A stretch of 64,000 nt of DNA from Thermogutta terrifontis (lineage in GTDB: Bacteria > Planctomycetota > Planctomycetia > Pirellulales > Thermoguttaceae), in contig NZ_CP018477.1 in assembly GCF_002277955.1 (NCBI RefSeq), positions 1,860,001-1,924,000 on the forward strand, written 5' to 3'. The notes below the pieces were generated by a model. It worked only from the letters and a program-made list of their open reading frames with translations. It did no database searches and had not been told where the DNA came from. Below are positions 41,717 through 53,041 of this stretch, in pieces. A program made the translations under genes and the position numbers. Every line of letters starts with the position of its first letter. Within the stretch, counting starts at the first letter, position 1.

Positions 41717-43477
41717 TCATTTCGGCAGGTGGATGGTGAAGGTGCTTCCTCGGCCAACTTCGCTTGTGACCGTCACGTATCCTCCGTGCACCTGCGCCAC
41801 GTGTTTGACGATGGAGAGGCCCAGCCCTGTCCCGCCGAGTTCGCGGCTTCTCCCGGGGTCCACACAGTAAAAACGCTCGAAGATGCGGGGAAGGTGCCGG
41901 CTTTCAATGCCCCATCCCTCATCAATCACGGAAAAGAGAATCTCTTTATCTTGCATTTCTACCCGAACTGTGATCGTTTTTCCGGGATCGCTGTACTTGA
42001 TCGCATTGTCGATCAGATTGACAATCGCCATCTGGAACAGGCGGGGATTAACATCGAGGTCGGGATCTGTCACAATCTCCGCTTTCAAGGTCATGTTCTT
42101 TCTTTCCGCGGCAAGCTGGCACTGCTCAATTGCCCCTTGTATCAGGGCGCTGGCCTTAACCTGCTGGCGTTCAAGAGGCTGATCCGTTGCACTGTCCAGT
42201 CGTGTGAGCACCAGAAGATCGTCCACAATTCGTTCCAGTCGCTCGGTTTGTTCGAAGACGATCTGCGTGAAGTGTCGGGCTTGGTCCGGCTCTTCAATCG
42301 CACCGTCGAGCAATGTTTCGAGAAAACCTTTCATGGTGGTGAGTGGAGTTTTCAATTCGTGACTGACATTGGCGACGAAGTCTCGGCGCACCCGGTCAAG
42401 CACTTCGGTTCGCGTAACATCCCGAACGACCACCAGAAAGTGCACATCCCCGGTGTCATCAAAGCGAAGCGGCACGGCTCTTAGTTCGAGGTGTTGTTCA
42501 GGAAATTCGTGAGTAAGCCGAAGCGGTGGCGAAGCCTCGCCGGAAAGGACCCGTTGCCACCACGGTGGAAAGGCCGGGTGTCGAATTCGCTCGGAGAGGA
42601 TGAGTTGGCCGGGAGACAGATGGGGTGGGAAACGAAGGAGCTGAGCCGCCTGCTGGTTCCACTTCTGTCCCCTTCCCTCTCGATCCAGGATGAGGATTCC
42701 GTCGGCAAGATGTTCCAGAACGGCCTCCAACTCAGCCTGAATTTGGCGAAGCCTTTTACGCTCATTTTCACGCTGAACCGTGTAGTCCCGCCACTGTTGC
42801 GCCAGTTGCACAATTTCCTGCGGGTACCATCGTGGCACGGATGGCCCACGCTCCTTGACCAGCTTTTCGGGCGAGAGCCCAGCAAGGACTCTGTCGACCC
42901 AGAGGCCTACGACCAACCATCCCATAGCACCCAGGAGGCTCCCCCAACCGATACTTCGCAAGCCGCTCCAGAGAATCGTGCCCGACAGATTTGCCGAACT
43001 CAAAGGAATCTCTTGCTCGAGCCATAGCACGGCGGGCGCGGAAAGCGCGGTTACGGGAAAAGCCGCCACGCAGCGGAGATGGCCGCCCGACCGAACCTCC
43101 TGCCACCGAAACACCGGGCGTCCCGAGTTCCGGCACAGTTGGACCTCCGACGGCTCCGTGGCGGCACGGGTAATTCCCGGCGTTGTGGCTACCAGGACAC
43201 GTCCGCCTGCGTCGAAAATCGCAAGCTGGAGTTCCAAAGCGCCGGCCTTTTGACGCAAGACGTTGGTCAGGGCTTGGAGGTCCGTCATCTGTTTCGCCGT
43301 TTCGTCTGGAAGAATGGTCCGGGCAAGATAGTGCGCCCGCTCTTCGATCCACATGTTCACGAGCTGCTCATGGGTGGCCGGACTCGTGAGTAACCATATC
43401 AGGGCAATTGGAACAGTCGTGACAGCCCAAAAAGTGAGAAGCACGAAAGGTAACCTCAATCGAGACAGGCGAAACAT
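41717..43477 (-). CDS. PhoR-type sensor histidine kinase
   Basis: 586 residues. Membrane segments at residues 9-30 and 167-195 flank an extracytoplasmic sensor of ~135 residues. A PAS domain (about 248-357) precedes the HisKA box with phospho-acceptor His373 in NVSHELKTPLTTMKG. The ATPase has the N box NLIDNAIKYSD, DEGWGIE (G1) and GGTGLGLSIVKHV (G2). The arrangement, including PAS before HisKA, is that of PhoR, the phosphate-starvation kinase. It lies about 2.3 kb from the pst operon but is separated from it by two other genes. No response regulator gene is adjacent, which is unusual. ATG 43477 is preferred over TTG 43492. Confidence 0.88.
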   Translation of the reverse strand: MFRLSRLRLPFVLLTFWAVTTVPIALIWLLTSPATHEQLVNMWIEERAHYLARTILPDETAKQMTDLQALTNVLRQKAGALELQLAIFDAGGRVLVATTPGITRAATEPSEVQLCRNSGRPVFRWQEVRSGGHLRCVAAFPVTALSAPAVLWLEQEIPLSSANLSGTILWSGLRSIGWGSLLGAMGWLVVGLWVDRVLAGLSPEKLVKERGPSVPRWYPQEIVQLAQQWRDYTVQRENERKRLRQIQAELEAVLEHLADGILILDREGRGQKWNQQAAQLLRFPPHLSPGQLILSERIRHPAFPPWWQRVLSGEASPPLRLTHEFPEQHLELRAVPLRFDDTGDVHFLVVVRDVTRTEVLDRVRRDFVANVSHELKTPLTTMKGFLETLLDGAIEEPDQARHFTQIVFEQTERLERIVDDLLVLTRLDSATDQPLERQQVKASALIQGAIEQCQLAAERKNMTLKAEIVTDPDLDVNPRLFQMAIVNLIDNAIKYSDPGKTITVRVEMQDKEILFSVIDEGWGIESRHLPRIFERFYCVDPGRSRELGGTGLGLSIVKHVAQVHGGYVTVTSEVGRGSTFTIHLPK

Positions 43478-43726
43478 GACTGCGATTCCCAAAGTGCGAT
43501 GTCTGGATCAAAATGGTGGCTTAACCGATCTGACTGACGGAGCTTTATTCCAAGGTGAGCGCGTCGAGATCGGTAGTCTCAGCTTCTTATGTTCTCATTC
43601 CCCTGAAATTGATCTTGACTGTTTTCAAGCAATCAATCTACGCTACTTCCGATGGTGCGTCCAAGTTGACGGATGTTGGGACATCTGGAGAGACACCCAC
43701 GGACGGTGAGCGAAGAAGGAAATCAC

Positions 43727-45805: not shown

Positions 45806-46921
45806 TTATCCAAACCGTCCCGTCACATACGCTTCCGTCTCCGGCAACCGTGGGGCACTGAAGATGTCTGGGGTCGGGCCGTATTCGATAAGACGACCCA
45901 AATAGAGCAGAGCCGTGTAATCACTCACCCGGGCGGCCTGCTGCATATTGTGAGTCACGATGACCACGGTATATTCCCCAGCGAGTTCTCGGATGAGATC
46001 TTCAATCTTGTTCGTCGCGATGGGATCGAGTGCCGAGCAGGGCTCGTCCAATAACAGCACTTCCGGGTTGCCTGCCAAAGCTCGGGCGATGCACAGACGC
46101 TGCTGCTGCCCGCCGGAAAGCTGGAGGGCGTTTTGATTGAGATGATCCTTGACCTCATCCCAAAGTGCGGCCGCCCGGAGGCACCGCTCACATTGTTCCT
46201 GAAGGTACTGCCGATTTCGGATGCCCTGAATCCGCAGCGGATAGACGACGTTCTCAAAAATGCTCATGGGAAAGGGATTGGGCTTCTGAAACACCATGCC
46301 TGCCCGCTTGCGGATTTGGGTCACATCCACGGTAGGATCAAATACCGAGACGCCATCCAACCGGATATCTCCTTCCGTACGCACATCATCAATCAGATCA
46401 TTCATGCGGTTGACGCAGCGGATCAGCGTGGATTTGCCGCATCCACTGGGACCGATGATGGCGGTTACCTTCCCTTTCGGGATATTCATGGAAATGTCGA
46501 AGAGGGTCTGTTTTTTCCCGTACCAGAGGCTGAAATGGTCTATTTCAAGGACGGCGGGCTCTGCCAGAACCTGCGGATGGATTTCGCTTTCAAAAGGTTC
46601 ACCTCGGGCGATCGCTGCCAATCGCGACGCGCCCTGCAACAGCGATTCTTCGAAGGAAAGCAGTTTTCCGTCACGGCTCGCTCGTACTTGGGAGTTGGAG
46701 GGCTGAACTTTTACGGCCGAGCTTAGCCGAGTTGAGGTTGTTTCCGCAGATGACGGTGCAGACTTGGAATCCATGGGAGACACGCGCTCAATAAACGGAT
46801 TACTGGCCAGACTGGCCAGTTGCGACTCTTTCTTCTCTCGCAAAGCGGCAACCTTACGGCCGGAGTTTATTGGCACAAAAGTTTGCCAGTAGCTCATCTT
46901 AGTAAAGCCACGCTTCATCAT
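45806..46921 (-). CDS. pstB: Phosphate ABC transporter ATP-binding protein PstB, N-terminally extended
   Basis: 371 residues; PstB proteins usually have 250-280. The ATPase domain starts near residue 122 ([23 protein letters not shown]). Walker A is GPSGCGKST, followed by the PstB-specific [10 protein letters not shown]. The Q-loop is [15 protein letters not shown], the signature [15 protein letters not shown] and Walker [13 protein letters not shown], with switch His in VTHNMQQA. The start ATG at 46921 overlaps the pstA stop by four bases (ATGA), classic translational coupling. About 95-120 residues precede the core; they are polar, Ser-rich and of unknown role, and an internal start at 46774 is possible. 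Confidence 0.93.
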
Positions 46922-48675
46922 AAATGCAAGACGCGTGAGGCCCGCCGTAACCGCGCACGCAGTGCGAACGCCCACAGGTTGAGTGCCAGAATAAGCAAAA
47001 TCAACACCAGTGTTGTGGAGAATACCATCGGCTTGGCGGCTTCGCTGTTGGGACTTTGAAAACCGAGGTCATAAATGTGGAAACCCAGGTGCATAAAACT
47101 CCGCTGCAGGTGAATGTAGGGGAAGCGATGATCGATGGGCAACTCCGGAGCCAGTTTGACAGCGCCGGTCAGCATGAGTGGAGCCACTTCTCCCGCGCCA
47201 CGAGCCATGGCCAAAATCGTGCCGGTGAGGATTCCTGGAAACGCTTGGGGTATAACCACCCGACGCAGCGTCTGCCAGCGGGTAGCACCACAGGCATAGG
47301 AGCCCTCGCGGACAGATCGAGGAACTGCGGCCAGTGCCTCTTCAGTGGCCACAATGACTACCGGGAGCGTGAGCAGCGCAAGCGTAAGAGATGCCCAGAG
47401 AATTCCCCCGGTGCCAAAAGTCGGGTTGGGGAGCCGAGCCTGGAAGAAAATGCTATCGATCGATCCGCCGACCAGGTAGCAGAAAAATCCGAGACCAAAC
47501 ACGCCAAAGACGATGCTGGGTACTCCCGCCAAATTGTTGATGGCAATCCGTAAACCACTGACGATCACGCCGCCTTTGGCATACTCCCGCAGGTAAAGTG
47601 CCGCCAGCACTCCCATGGGCACAACAGCGATGGTCATCAAGAGCGTTAGAAATGCTGTCCCAAAAATCGCCGGAAAGATTCCACCTTCGGTGTTGGCCTC
47701 TCGTGGTTCGTCTGTTAAAAACTCCCAGACCCGGCTCAGGTAAACCTGGCATCGCGCAATCAGGTCAAGTTGGTTTGCCGGATACGCGCGAACAATGTCC
47801 GCCAGAGCGATGTCTTTCTCCTGACCATCGGCCGTTTTCAGGCGAATGGCATACCGAGCGTTCTCAGCTCGCAGGCGCTCAATTTCCTGCCGCACCGATT
47901 CGTAACGTTCGTTTAATTTCTTTTCTGCCTGAGCAACCTCTGCCTCCAAGCGGCGATACCGCGGGGATTGCTTACCTTCTTCCAGTTCCACAGAGCGCAG
48001 ACGCAGACGGGCAGACTCAAGATCGTGATTGATGTCGCCAAGGACCCGAGTTTCCAATCGCCTGATCACCCTGAACCGGCGGCGTACCTCTGGATGCCAG
48101 TGAAGAAAGTTTTCCCATGCCTCGGAGGGCGTGGTGACCTGGGGCTGACCATCGATCACGAAAGCCACGGGAATTCCATAAAACCGTCCCCATGCCATCC
48201 GTTCCAAAACAATAACCCAGTCGGGCCAGGTGGTCTTACCCAGGAGAATCTCAGGCGCCGACACCCACTGGAAGTGTTCATTGGTGAGTTCGTAATTACC
48301 TGTTCTCACCAGGTACCGCAGAACCCAGCCTTTGTGCTTATCCGTATATTCCTGGAAGGATTTTTGTAGTTCCGGTGACATGTTCTGGATGGATTGAGGG
48401 TCTGGACGAAACCATTCGCTTCGAGTGATTTCACCCATCACCACGCGATCCGGCAGTTCCCACCGAACGACACGAAGGGGCCAGAAAGTCCGCGTCCCTT
48501 CTACCAGGATGAGGGCCAGCAAACCGAACATCATCGTGAGTGCGATGACCAGCGCGCCGCCAGTCAGCCACAGAGAGGGCTCGGCATAGGCCGAGAGCAA
48601 TCGTGCGGGGCTGTCCCGCAAGGCGGGCGGTTCACGAGAAATTCTTGTGTTTCTCGAAGTTATAACCTGTGTCAT
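46918..48675 (-). CDS. pstA: Phosphate ABC transporter permease PstA, with large insertion
   Basis: 585 residues, about twice a standard PstA. A first membrane segment near residues 36-58 ([20 protein letters not shown]) is followed by ~270 extracytoplasmic residues. These include a coiled coil of Glu/Arg heptads ([49 protein letters not shown]). The permease core then has about five helices, the EAA-type loop ([28 protein letters not shown]) and a C-terminal helix. ATG 48675 is the likely start, 52 bases after pstC. The insertion is absent from classical PstA but a long form exists in some bacteria. Confidence 0.9.
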
Positions 48676-48727
48676 CGAATTGGAACCGTTAAGCCATCCA
48701 GGTTTAAGTGATGGAAGCGGTCTGAAA

Positions 48728-51493
48728 TCACAATTGAAATGCCTTCTTGCGGAACCGTAGACGGACGAGCTCCGCCACGGTATTGACGATAAACGTGATA
48801 ACAAACAGGCAAAGCCCGGCCAGGAACAGCATCCGGTAGTGCGTGCTGTACTGGACCGCCTCGGGCAATTCCACCGCGATGTTGGCCGACAACGTTCGGA
48901 AACCGCTGAATATGTTCCAGTCCATGATGGGCGTGTTTCCGGCGGCCATCAGGACGATCATTGTTTCCCCAGCAGCCCGCCCCAGCCCAATCATGAGGGC
49001 AGAGAAAAGTCCACTCATGGCGGTCGGAATAACCACCCGGAGAGCGGTTTGCCAGGGCGTGGCACCGGCGCCAAGGGAAGCAGCACGGAGGTGATCCGGT
49101 ACAGCCGTCAGGGCATCGTCGGCGATCGTGTAAATGATGGGGATGATCGCAAAACCCATCACGAAACCGACGACGAAGGCATTCCGCTGCACGTAGGTAC
49201 CAAGAAACAATCCACGTGGGTCGATGCCCAAGACATGCGTCAAAAGCCACCCCAGAAGGAAACTGGCAAAGAAGGCTGCCACGACGCCCAGCAGAAATAA
49301 GCCGAGCTTGATCCATGCCCAAAGTTGACGAGAAGCAAGTGGCAGAAATCTTTCAAGAGTTGGCCCAATCCACAAGATCTGGGTCATCGCCACGAATACG
49401 CCCGCGAGAGGCAACAATACAAACGCCCAGCCAGGTGTTCCCGAGCCTACCCTTCCATTCAGCCATGCCTTGATATCCCCGTGAAAAAAGGCCTTTTCAG
49501 CCAGTGGGCCGGCGTAGTTGGCCAGGGCAATGCCCAGCGCGCAGGCCACTAGGATTGTCCAGAACCGGTACCGCGCCGCGACGAACTGCCAGGACCTCGG
49601 CAGAACCCGAAGAACGTGTCCGCCCAGCAGGAGCGCGAATGGTACTGTGTAGAACACGGCTAGAACCTGGGGAAGGCGTGTTTCCACCCAGGGGGCAAAC
49701 ACAAGTGCCGCCAGAAAACCCAGCACCACGCTGGGCAGGCCCGCCATCAGTTCCAGGCTGGGCTTGACATACGCCCGCACGCTCTTGTGCAGCACCTCGC
49801 TGGTATAAACGGCGGCCAGGAACGCCAGTGGCACGGCAAAAAGAAGGGCGAATACGGTGGCCTTGATAGTTCCGAAAATGAGTGGAGTGAGACTGTACTT
49901 GGGCTCAAAGTCGTCTGTACCGCTCGATGATTGCCAGACAAACTCCGGTTTTGGGTACCCCTCGTACCAAACCCGTCCAAAAACAGAGCGGAGCGTGATA
50001 CCGGCATGAGGGGCGGCAAGCCGCCAGAGTTGGGCCTGGTGCTTTTCGACTGCGATGAGGGCGTCTTCTTTAGGGCCAATCGCCACAGCCGAAATGTGTG
50101 TCTCCCACGATTTTGCGGCGTTCCTTGCGGCAGAGAGTGGTTTAGAACCATGAGCGGATGACGCAGTTACCTCTGCAACAAACCTATCTTCCGCGACGAG
50201 CTGCTCGCTTGTGGCGTGAAAGACTCTCACCGTTCCGTCGGAGTACGCCACGGAGAAGAGACGACTCCGCTGGGAGGGACCGAAGCACACAGCCGCGGCC
50301 GGCCCTTTGCGAAAGATATGTCCCTGCACAAGCTGGACGCCATCGGGAGTCTTAGCATTTTCGGGTTTAATGGGAAACCAGGCAGAGACCTCACCATCGC
50401 GGGTTCCAATGAGAAGGGTGTTCTTTCCGATGAGTTGACCGAATGCTGTAATGGTATCGTTTCCGCGAGTGACTCGGAGTCTTTCTGCGACCTGTGGGGC
50501 ATCCACCACACGGGTGTCAACGCGGAGGAGTCGGCCGTCTTGCCACAGGAGGTAGACCGAATCGCCAACCCCCGACATGCAGAGATAACTCGGAAAACTC
50601 TCTCCGAGCTCCGCGTCCAATTCCAAGGAACCCCCGGAAAAGGTCACCGTTTCCTCGCCTGTCAGAAAGTTGAGCTTCTTTTCTGAGGTTCCCACGTGGA
50701 GAACTCTATCCTCAGTGAGGGCGGCGAGAAGTCGGGTTTCACCGCGGAAAGAAGAGTCCACCAGGACCACGGCCCGATCACCAAGGACGACCGGGTCTTC
50801 CCGCGAAACCGAGACACGCGAATTTCGCCAGAGCCCCTGCCCGGCAGTCCACCAGGCGGCGTCGCCCTCGATGACTACCTTGGTCTCAGCGGCCGGGCTC
50901 GGCCGATGAGATCTGATTTGCGCGGGTACTTCCTCCTCAGGGACGGAAGTCATCTGGATCGTGAAACTTCCCGGCAACAGTTTGCCGTCCTGCGTTCCCA
51001 GCACAAATGATCGTCGTCGAGCGTCCACCGTGGCGCAGACGATGTTTTCCGATTCACTTAATGGGATCTGGTGAACCATCCGTCCTTGAGCCAACTCCCA
51101 GACGGAAAGGATACCCGTTCGCGAGACACCCCAGAGCACGGAAACGGACTCATCCACACCGAATGCCACAGGATTTGAAGGCAGGGCGTCGTCAAGCGAT
51201 TCATGGCGAGTCTGCCTGCTCTGAAGCTCTTGTTGCGGCTCCTCGGAACTCGGCGGTTCGCCGGACGTTCTTGCAGCCCTTGAGCCCGCAGTCGGCCGCT
51301 CCATGGTGAGTCGCACGACTGCCTGGTGAGTTAAAGATGCAGGCCGGAAAAGTGGGAGCACACTCCAGACCAGAAAGACAAAAACCGCCAGAACGGCGAC
51401 AATTGTGCTGACGCCTCCGAGGGAAATAATCCAGGCTGCGATTCGATCGATTGAGTGGACTATGCGAGTTCTTCGCCTCGACGCACTATCCAT
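48728..51493 (-). CDS. pstC: Phosphate ABC transporter permease PstC, long form with periplasmic propeller-like domain
   Basis: 921 residues against ~300-340 for classical PstC. A membrane helix (IISLGGVSTIVAVLAVFVFLVWSVLPLF, about 23-50) is followed by ~480 extracytoplasmic residues with WD-like blades (SVLWGVSRTGILSVWELAQG, FVLGTQDGKLL, LLIGTRDGEVSAWF, VAYSDGTVRVF). The permease core starts near residue 550 and carries the EAA loop (AASLGAGATPWQTALRVVIPTAMSGLFSAL). GAAGGAGC precedes two ATGs at 51496 and 51493; the second has better spacing. Long PstC proteins of this kind are known in other phyla (COG4590-like). The role of the propeller is unproven. Confidence 0.9.
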   Translation of the reverse strand: MDSASRRRTRIVHSIDRIAAWIISLGGVSTIVAVLAVFVFLVWSVLPLFRPASLTHQAVVRLTMERPTAGSRAARTSGEPPSSEEPQQELQSRQTRHESLDDALPSNPVAFGVDESVSVLWGVSRTGILSVWELAQGRMVHQIPLSESENIVCATVDARRRSFVLGTQDGKLLPGSFTIQMTSVPEEEVPAQIRSHRPSPAAETKVVIEGDAAWWTAGQGLWRNSRVSVSREDPVVLGDRAVVLVDSSFRGETRLLAALTEDRVLHVGTSEKKLNFLTGEETVTFSGGSLELDAELGESFPSYLCMSGVGDSVYLLWQDGRLLRVDTRVVDAPQVAERLRVTRGNDTITAFGQLIGKNTLLIGTRDGEVSAWFPIKPENAKTPDGVQLVQGHIFRKGPAAAVCFGPSQRSRLFSVAYSDGTVRVFHATSEQLVAEDRFVAEVTASSAHGSKPLSAARNAAKSWETHISAVAIGPKEDALIAVEKHQAQLWRLAAPHAGITLRSVFGRVWYEGYPKPEFVWQSSSGTDDFEPKYSLTPLIFGTIKATVFALLFAVPLAFLAAVYTSEVLHKSVRAYVKPSLELMAGLPSVVLGFLAALVFAPWVETRLPQVLAVFYTVPFALLLGGHVLRVLPRSWQFVAARYRFWTILVACALGIALANYAGPLAEKAFFHGDIKAWLNGRVGSGTPGWAFVLLPLAGVFVAMTQILWIGPTLERFLPLASRQLWAWIKLGLFLLGVVAAFFASFLLGWLLTHVLGIDPRGLFLGTYVQRNAFVVGFVMGFAIIPIIYTIADDALTAVPDHLRAASLGAGATPWQTALRVVIPTAMSGLFSALMIGLGRAAGETMIVLMAAGNTPIMDWNIFSGFRTLSANIAVELPEAVQYSTHYRMLFLAGLCLFVITFIVNTVAELVRLRFRKKAFQL

Positions 51494-51496
51494 CAT

Positions 51497-51824: not shown

Positions 51825-52835
51825 TCAAAAGTCGACGGGTAGCCCCACAGCCTGAAGTGTTTTTCGAGCGAAGACAGCCGGCACGGGATAGTAACCGGCA
51901 CGAATGACGTCATTCTGCCCTTGCTTGCTGAAGATATACTTGATGAACTCAGCCCGAAGGGGGTCGAGTTGGGTTCCTTGCTTATAGTTCACGTACACGT
52001 AGAGAAACCGGGCAAGGGGATAATCCCCCGTGTAGGCATGCTCTGGTTCCGCGGGGACGAAGGGTGCTCCCTGTTTGGCAGCGAGAGGGAGTGCTCGCAC
52101 GTCTGCGGTCTTGTACCCAATCCCGCTGTATCCGATGGCATAGCGATCGCTCGCAACCCCTTGAACCACCGAGGAGCTACCAGGCTGTTCCTTGACCTCA
52201 TCTTTGAAATCGCCGCCGAATAGGGCGTGTTCTTTGAAGAATCCGTAGGTTCCCGATGCCGAGTTTCGGCCGTAAAGACTTATCGGATGGGAAGCCCAAT
52301 CTCCAGTCAGGCCCAACTGGCCCCAGGTTCGGATATCCGTGGGATAACCGCCACGACGAGTCTTTGAGAAAATGGCGTCCACCTGCTGGAGAGTCAATCC
52401 TTTAATGGGATTGTCCCTATGCACATAAACTGCCAGCATATCGATGGCCGTGGACAGAGCCGTTGGCTTGTAACCGAACTTGGCCTCAAATTGATCGATC
52501 TCGGCTTCTTTCATGGGGCGACTCATCGGCCCAAATTGCGATGTGCCCGCGATTAAGGCGGGCGGTGCCGTCGATGAGCCTTTTCCTTCGATCTCAATCT
52601 GCACGTTAGGATAATAACGGCGGAATCCCTCGGCCCAAAGGGTCATGAGGATGTTCATGGTGTCCGAACCAACACTTTTCAGGTTACCGGACACACCCTG
52701 AACGGGTTTATAATCCGGAAGTTTGGGATCTACCTGTATCTGCGCGAAACAAGCCGCATGAAACGCCCAGATACCGTAAACGGCCAGCGTCAGTCTGGCC
52801 AACCAGCGTGCTGCAAGTAATCGTCTCATCGTCAT
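51825..52835 (-). CDS. pstS: Phosphate-binding protein PstS
   Basis: 336 residues. A signal peptide (RRLLAARWLARLTLAVYGIWAFHAACFA) precedes the mature QIQVDPKL start; there is no lipobox. The binding protein hands phosphate to PstC/PstA. Phosphate-contacting motifs are GSDTMNILM near the N-terminus, EGKGSSTAPPALIAGTSQFGPMSRPM, and the hinge/second-domain GRNSASGTYGFFKE. AAGGA lies 8 bases before the ATG at 52835; ATG 52829 is next. The first gene of the operon, it is preceded by a Pho box 168 bases upstream. Confidence 0.95.
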   Translation of the reverse strand: MTMRRLLAARWLARLTLAVYGIWAFHAACFAQIQVDPKLPDYKPVQGVSGNLKSVGSDTMNILMTLWAEGFRRYYPNVQIEIEGKGSSTAPPALIAGTSQFGPMSRPMKEAEIDQFEAKFGYKPTALSTAIDMLAVYVHRDNPIKGLTLQQVDAIFSKTRRGGYPTDIRTWGQLGLTGDWASHPISLYGRNSASGTYGFFKEHALFGGDFKDEVKEQPGSSSVVQGVASDRYAIGYSGIGYKTADVRALPLAAKQGAPFVPAEPEHAYTGDYPLARFLYVYVNYKQGTQLDPLRAEFIKYIFSKQGQNDVIRAGYYPVPAVFARKTLQAVGLPVDF

Positions 52836-52987
52836 AACTGGTTTCCTTTGGGTGCCGAAGAGTTTCATCCACAGTACCTCGTTAAACCTCACTTCTGACC
52901 GCAGAGTCGCATCCGCGGAGCTTGCGTCCCTACCGCGCCTTTCCTTTACTCTTGTTGTGCACTGCGGTCGTGGCCACGTTTGCCTTG

Positions 52988-52993
52988 ATTTTA
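52988..52993 (-). promoter_or_regulatory. Candidate -10 element of pstS
   Basis: On the minus strand, TAAAAT (within TTTAAAAT) lies nine bases downstream of the Pho box. The -35 position falls inside the second Pho repeat, the usual arrangement where an activator replaces a poor -35. This leaves an untranslated leader of about 145 bases. Confidence 0.45.
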
Positions 52994-53002
52994 AAGGCAC
53001 TC

Positions 53003-53041
53003 TGTTAGGCATTTGTTAAGGAATTGTTAAGAATTTGTTAA
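53003..53041 (-). promoter_or_regulatory. Pho box: four 11-bp-spaced TTAACA repeats upstream of pstS
   Basis: On the minus strand: TTAACA-N5-TTAACA-N5-TTAACA-N5-CTAACA. The plus-strand repeats TGTTAG/TGTTAA begin at 53003, 53014, 53025 and 53036, exactly 11 bp apart, so all face the same side of the helix. This matches the binding pattern of PhoP/PhoB-type regulators (TT[AT]ACA repeats in Bacillus). It should activate the pst operon in phosphate starvation. Confidence 0.85.

Follow-up and report, generated by a model that had tools for sequence, protein, structure and literature searches.

The window analysed here is a stretch of 64,000 nucleotides from the genome of Thermogutta terrifontis, which consists of one contig of 4,810,751 bases. 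Its minus strand carries the four genes of a phosphate transporter, pstS, pstC, pstA and pstB, each with an NCBIfam match that exceeds the cut-off of the model, as well as a repeat array that lies ahead of pstS on the same strand and a gene for a PhoR-like sensor kinase. The features of the locus are as follows:

53003-53041, minus strand: very probable Pho box of four direct half-sites (from the sequence, its uniqueness in the genome and its identity in congener G001)
52988-52993, minus strand: TAAAAT, probable -10 element, 9 bases past the last half-site (TANNNT has this spacing in 30 of the 48 related arrays examined)
52844-52849, minus strand: AAAGGA, probable ribosome-binding site of pstS, judged from the sequence
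51825-52835, minus strand: pstS, phosphate-binding protein (TIGR02136, 240.6 bits against a cut-off of 206.6; PF12849)
48728-51496, minus strand: pstC, long permease of 922 aa (TIGR02138, 211.8 bits against 196.45, in two stretches)
46918-48804, minus strand: pstA, long permease of 628 aa (TIGR00974, 248.6 bits against 193.45)
45806-46975, minus strand: pstB, ATPase, start codon uncertain (TIGR00972, 385.7 bits against 343.2, with 45806-46768 as the query)
41717-43492, minus strand: PhoR-like sensor kinase (HisKA and HATPase_c; NCBIfam matches strongest to PnpS and PhoR, under the cut-off in both cases)

Read along the minus strand from 53041 to 53003, the array has the form TTAACA-N5-TTAACA-N5-TTAACA-N5-CTAACA in exact 11-base steps, with TTAACA at 53041-53036, 53030-53025 and 53019-53014 and CTAACA at 53008-53003. 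The initial annotation, which had described a four-repeat array of exact 11-bp periodicity upstream of pstS, was thus correct on this point, and the TAAAAT that it had placed nine bases downstream is present too (52993-52988, after a 9-base spacer). The last half-site of the array occupies the expected -35 location, and 167 bases separate the end of the array from the pstS start codon (52835). Judged by their number, the four half-sites would offer room for two PhoB-type dimers. The spacers between the repeats are not alike, in contrast to a tandem duplication. Both permeases are far larger than their NCBIfam models (296 positions for PstC and 272 for PstA), and residues 399-433 of PstC give a weak, sub-threshold WD40-like match.

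We scanned the whole genome by pattern searches that allow mismatches, with the reversed pattern as control. At the G+C content of the window, approximately 9e-8 exact four-repeat arrays would be expected by chance per genome, and approximately 0.005 arrays with up to three mismatches. The four-repeat pattern with up to three mismatches was found at a single site in the whole genome, before pstS, and the reversed control returned none. The exact pair [CT]TAACA-N5-[CT]TAACA occurs three times, in every case within the array (two in the reversed control), and a genome scan for three repeats with two mismatches gave no further site, its two matches both lying in the array against two in the control, which is the noise level. 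On the same strand, no Pho box was found in the 400 bases upstream of phoB or in the 300 bases upstream of phoR (best match 12 of 24 mismatches in either case), and none was found on either strand of a 4-kb stretch around phoU (best 9-10 of 24 mismatches), a gene that is distant from pst, at about 1405603-1406331 of the genome. The motif had been put forward as a means of defining the organism's Pho regulon; in that form the proposal found no support, since the strict motif marks pstS alone in this genome and a second, weaker site (described below) was found only via orthology. In the congener G001, the array likewise lies upstream of pstS, where 39 of 39 array bases and the TAAAAT are identical whereas the flanks and the bases separating the array from the TAAAAT diverge in places.

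Only one OmpR/PhoB-type regulator (Trans_reg_C) was found in the whole 4.8-Mb genome, at 2003659-2004378, away from pst. Among NCBIfam models it matches PhoB best, with 243.4 bits where the cut-off is 296.2, and on its sequence it is likely to be PhoB; the kinase at 41717-43492 is its likely partner. Both the regulator and the kinase are under the equivalog cut-offs, a point that counts against the reading of the array as a Pho box. Among the 18 genomes of the family that were searched, Trans_reg_C matches number 0 to 5 per genome.

We then consider the array in relatives. Sixty-one genomes of the family, a draw of which G001 was not part, were scanned for the four-repeat pattern with up to three mismatches and for the reversed control; 16 of the 61 have a match and 45 have none. 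Two of the 16, G068 and G084, carry arrays made of AT-rich or simple tandem repeats; they were dropped from the count together with their control rows (2 and 5, respectively). The remaining 59 genomes yielded 27 distinct sites, spread over 14 genomes, and 10 control rows. These 27 sites correspond to 30 rows, three of which are shifted readings of one array. The next co-oriented gene is pstS at seven sites (four tested with the PstS model, the rest assigned by likeness), a phoB-type gene at three (that of G009 being a receiver fragment at a contig end), pstC at one and a Na/Pi symporter at one. The remaining sites lie before genes for DUF1559 proteins (11 sites, 10 genes), a phosphonate-type binding protein, a lipoprotein, a PHP-like protein (by eye) and a GDSL lipase, one site for each of the last four. 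That the three-mismatch control is not empty (10 rows, 59 genomes) is a further point against the Pho box; noise at this threshold is not negligible, yet noise would not favour phosphate genes. Two weak arrays by the G078 homologue of the lipoprotein (4 mismatches) lie 3' of the gene, seemingly as part of an inverted repeat, and were left uncounted.

A scan of 294 genomes across the phylum, with up to two mismatches and the reversed-pattern control, gave 52 rows in 31 genomes against 2 control rows, the other 263 genomes having no match. We read 28 new loci, each from a different genome among the 31; G113, for which there was no locus, was left out. At 20 of them the gene behind the array is Porin_O_P (8), pstB (7, of which six were tested with the PstB model), pstS-type (2), psiE (2) or phoB-type (1). 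The genes at the other eight have no obvious or recognised phosphate role, and comprise a kinase-like, a CheW-like and a cyclic-nucleotide-binding gene, an SBF-family transporter, a lone receiver and three without a Pfam match. The SBF-family transporter, behind a TTAACA array in G231 (L174:1679-2800), has SBF as its only Pfam match and presumably resembles an arsenite exporter.

The distance from the array to a -10-like element is also preferred. Of 48 distinct arrays, 30 have TANNNT exactly nine bases past the last repeat and 12 have it at offset 11, with every other offset at five or fewer. The count took the best array per locus from both scans (49 loci, one removed as identical), and left out L027 (G013), L031 (G033), L047 (G060), L157, L188, L190, second arrays per locus and simple repeats. 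Enrichment of the motif at other phosphate genes, on which the initial annotation had staked its reading, was thus not seen inside T. terrifontis, where few genes were checked, but is strong across its relatives. Given arrays of this type before phosphate genes across the phylum, and their favoured distance to a -10-like element, the proposal of a PhoP/PhoB-type binding array appears well founded. What emerges, backed by comparison and controls, is a phylum motif for phosphate control: YTAACA-N5 four times over, nine bases before the -10. No article describing a planctomycete Pho box was among the matches listed when the open-licence literature was searched for Pho control in planctomycetes or anammox bacteria.

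We consider it very probable, from the sequence comparisons, that the segment 53003-53041 serves as the Pho box of pstSCAB, an operator for a PhoB-type regulator. The array has 11-base direct repeats, has its last repeat at the -35 location, nine bases ahead of the probable -10, and recurs upstream of phosphate-starvation genes. It is a known type of site, ordinary in kind but very clean. Several further results weigh against this reading: 45 family and 263 phylum genomes without a match at the thresholds used, eight phylum loci whose genes lack an evident phosphate role, close pstS relatives such as L080 in which no array beats the shuffles, the missing box at phoB, phoR and phoU of T. terrifontis, and the lack of a Trans_reg_C match in the fragmented drafts of G001 and G002. 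During phosphate shortage, the PhoR-like kinase (41717-43492, or another) would phosphorylate the sole OmpR/PhoB-type regulator, and phosphorylated dimers would bind the array head to tail, with one monomer per 11-base repeat and on one helix face. As the last repeat stands at the -35 location, nine bases before TAAAAT, the bound regulator could take over the role of the -35 contact in bringing in RNA polymerase, and pstSCAB would be transcribed as a single message.

It is very improbable that the array is instead the operator of a regulator that is not of the PhoB type, such as a one-component pst activator or a repressor. This would accommodate the f52 genomes in which arrays lie before CheW-like, cNMP-binding and histidine kinase genes, as well as the congeners G001 and G002, which bear the box and gave no match in a Trans_reg_C search of their fragmented drafts. 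However, the T. terrifontis genome holds one OmpR-type regulator, and arrays lie before phoB-type genes in G060, G066 and G176, before the phoB-like receiver fragment in G009, and before psiE and phosphate-selective porins. Furthermore, the architecture is that known for PhoB: a Pho box is described in PMC4415409 as two 11-base direct-repeat units with head-to-tail binding, and the E. coli Pho box in PMC1906773 as lying 10 bases ahead of the -10.

The E. coli Pho box likewise has 11-base direct repeats, about 10 bases before the -10 and before pst genes, but its repeats are CTGTCAT whereas the Thermogutta half-sites are YTAACA, and enteric-type CTGTCAT half-sites are absent from the Thermogutta array. 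The cyanobacterial SphR box, given as three tandem repeats of CTTAACCT in PMC1906773, has the same 11-base period (8 bases and a 3-base linker), the TTAAC core and a place before pst genes; it has CT where Thermogutta has A after TTAAC, and three repeats instead of four. The recognition-helix stretch reads VDVHIRRLRK in E. coli PhoB and VDVHIASLRK in the Thermogutta regulator. In the E. coli structure these residues determine the letters of the half-site, and by analogy they may do so in Thermogutta too.

To compare the letters more widely, 80 relatives of pstS were collected by sequence, of which 79 had sufficient upstream DNA, and 100 base shuffles were made of each. For 15 of the 79, the best four-repeat YTAACA match is better than all 100 shuffles, where about one would be expected. 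These 15 include records of Planctomycetota, Phycisphaerae, Verrucomicrobia, Desulfatitalea, Desulfobacterales, Rokubacteriota and Abyssobacteria, and their matches span 3-9 of 24 mismatches, the weakest being an Armatimonadota record. CTGTCA pairs stand at Rhodospirillaceae, Alphaproteobacteria and Marinimicrobia records with 0, 1 and 1 mismatches, counts that carry no shuffle comparison. Neither the YTAACA nor the CTGTCA form was seen at many pstS relatives, among them the Thermoguttaceae record L080, a close relative in which no array beats the shuffles.

These comparisons bear on a further proposal of the initial annotation, a Bacillus-like TTAACA preference rather than the enteric one. 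The PhoP half-site of B. subtilis is TTAACA-like and its box has a four-repeat layout, so that letters and layout are the same in Thermogutta, and the letters TTAACA and CTAACA, not CTGTCAT, were indeed found. The specific tie to Bacillus was not supported: YTAACA also occurs at pstS of Verrucomicrobiota and Desulfobacterota, the cyanobacterial box has the related form given above, and PhoB is the model that the regulator matches best, albeit under cut-off. Since pstS promoters of several phyla carry it, TTAACA is not specially Bacillus-like; on the promoters compared, it is a common variant outside Proteobacteria, and its presence in a planctomycete is not a Bacillus trait. A PhoP box of the Bacillus type, either specific to a Bacillus-like regulator or gained together with one, would explain the shared half-site, but with YTAACA arrays at pstS of several Gram-negative phyla and PhoB as the best model it is highly improbable. 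Least credible of all is a chance or neutral tandem repeat without regulatory role, which the simple-repeat look of the G068 and G084 arrays might suggest but which is opposed by the minute chance expectation for exact arrays, by unlike spacers, by an array identical between congeners amid changed adjacent bases, and by the recurrent association with phosphate genes at a preferred -10 distance.

The Pho box also stands before some genes of the DUF1559 family, for which it offers a regulatory handle on proteins of unknown function. In Planctopirus limnophila, for example, 68 DUF1559 paralogues are called of unknown function in PMC10632474. Arrays lie before 1, 3, 2 and 4 DUF1559 genes (10 in total) in G002, G003, G030 and G079, whose genomes have 19, 36, 38 and 132 matches to the family, against 43 in T. 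terrifontis. The boxed genes are mutually related and hence are not independent cases. G002 C604, G003 C301 and G030 C156 are orthologues with 72-85 percent identity, and the T. terrifontis orthologue lies at genome 901207-902214 (L209:908-1915), with 75 percent identity to that of G002 over 297 residues. Upstream of it is the weaker site, TTAACA-N5-TTAGCG-N5-ATAACG-N5-CTAACA (901011-901049; L209:712-750), with 4 of 24 mismatches and a TATAGT nine bases past the box; when the 400 upstream bases were shuffled, none of 500 shuffles reached even 6 mismatches. The box at this one orthologue is thus found in T. terrifontis, two congeners and a second genus. At the other 23 of the 24 T. terrifontis DUF1559 stretches searched (the 24 represent 25 of the 43 matches), no site comes closer than 8 mismatches. 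A structure prediction of the orthologue from four sequences was uninformative (mean pLDDT 33.8).

A second DUF1559 orthologous group is boxed too; a lipoprotein gene lies close to it, and the G030 homologue of that gene has its own box. In T. terrifontis, a search for the lipoprotein partner of the G003 cluster returned a weak partial match only (E 6.8e-4). On this pattern of boxes, we lean towards the view that some proteins of DUF1559, a large planctomycete prepilin-like family, belong to the Pho regulon and, as surface proteins, may contribute to phosphorus scavenging, for instance by forming pseudopilin-like fibres or by taking part in phosphatase export. In G003, one box stands ahead of a DUF1559 pair, followed by a gap and then the lipoprotein on the same strand. 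The G030 homologues of the pair and of the lipoprotein are on separate contigs, with a box each; the loci of the two genomes are L055, L056 and L060. Finally, G079 has near-identical arrays at four DUF1559 genes (L188, L189, L190, L191), three of which also begin alike, as though the promoter had been duplicated along with the start of the gene.
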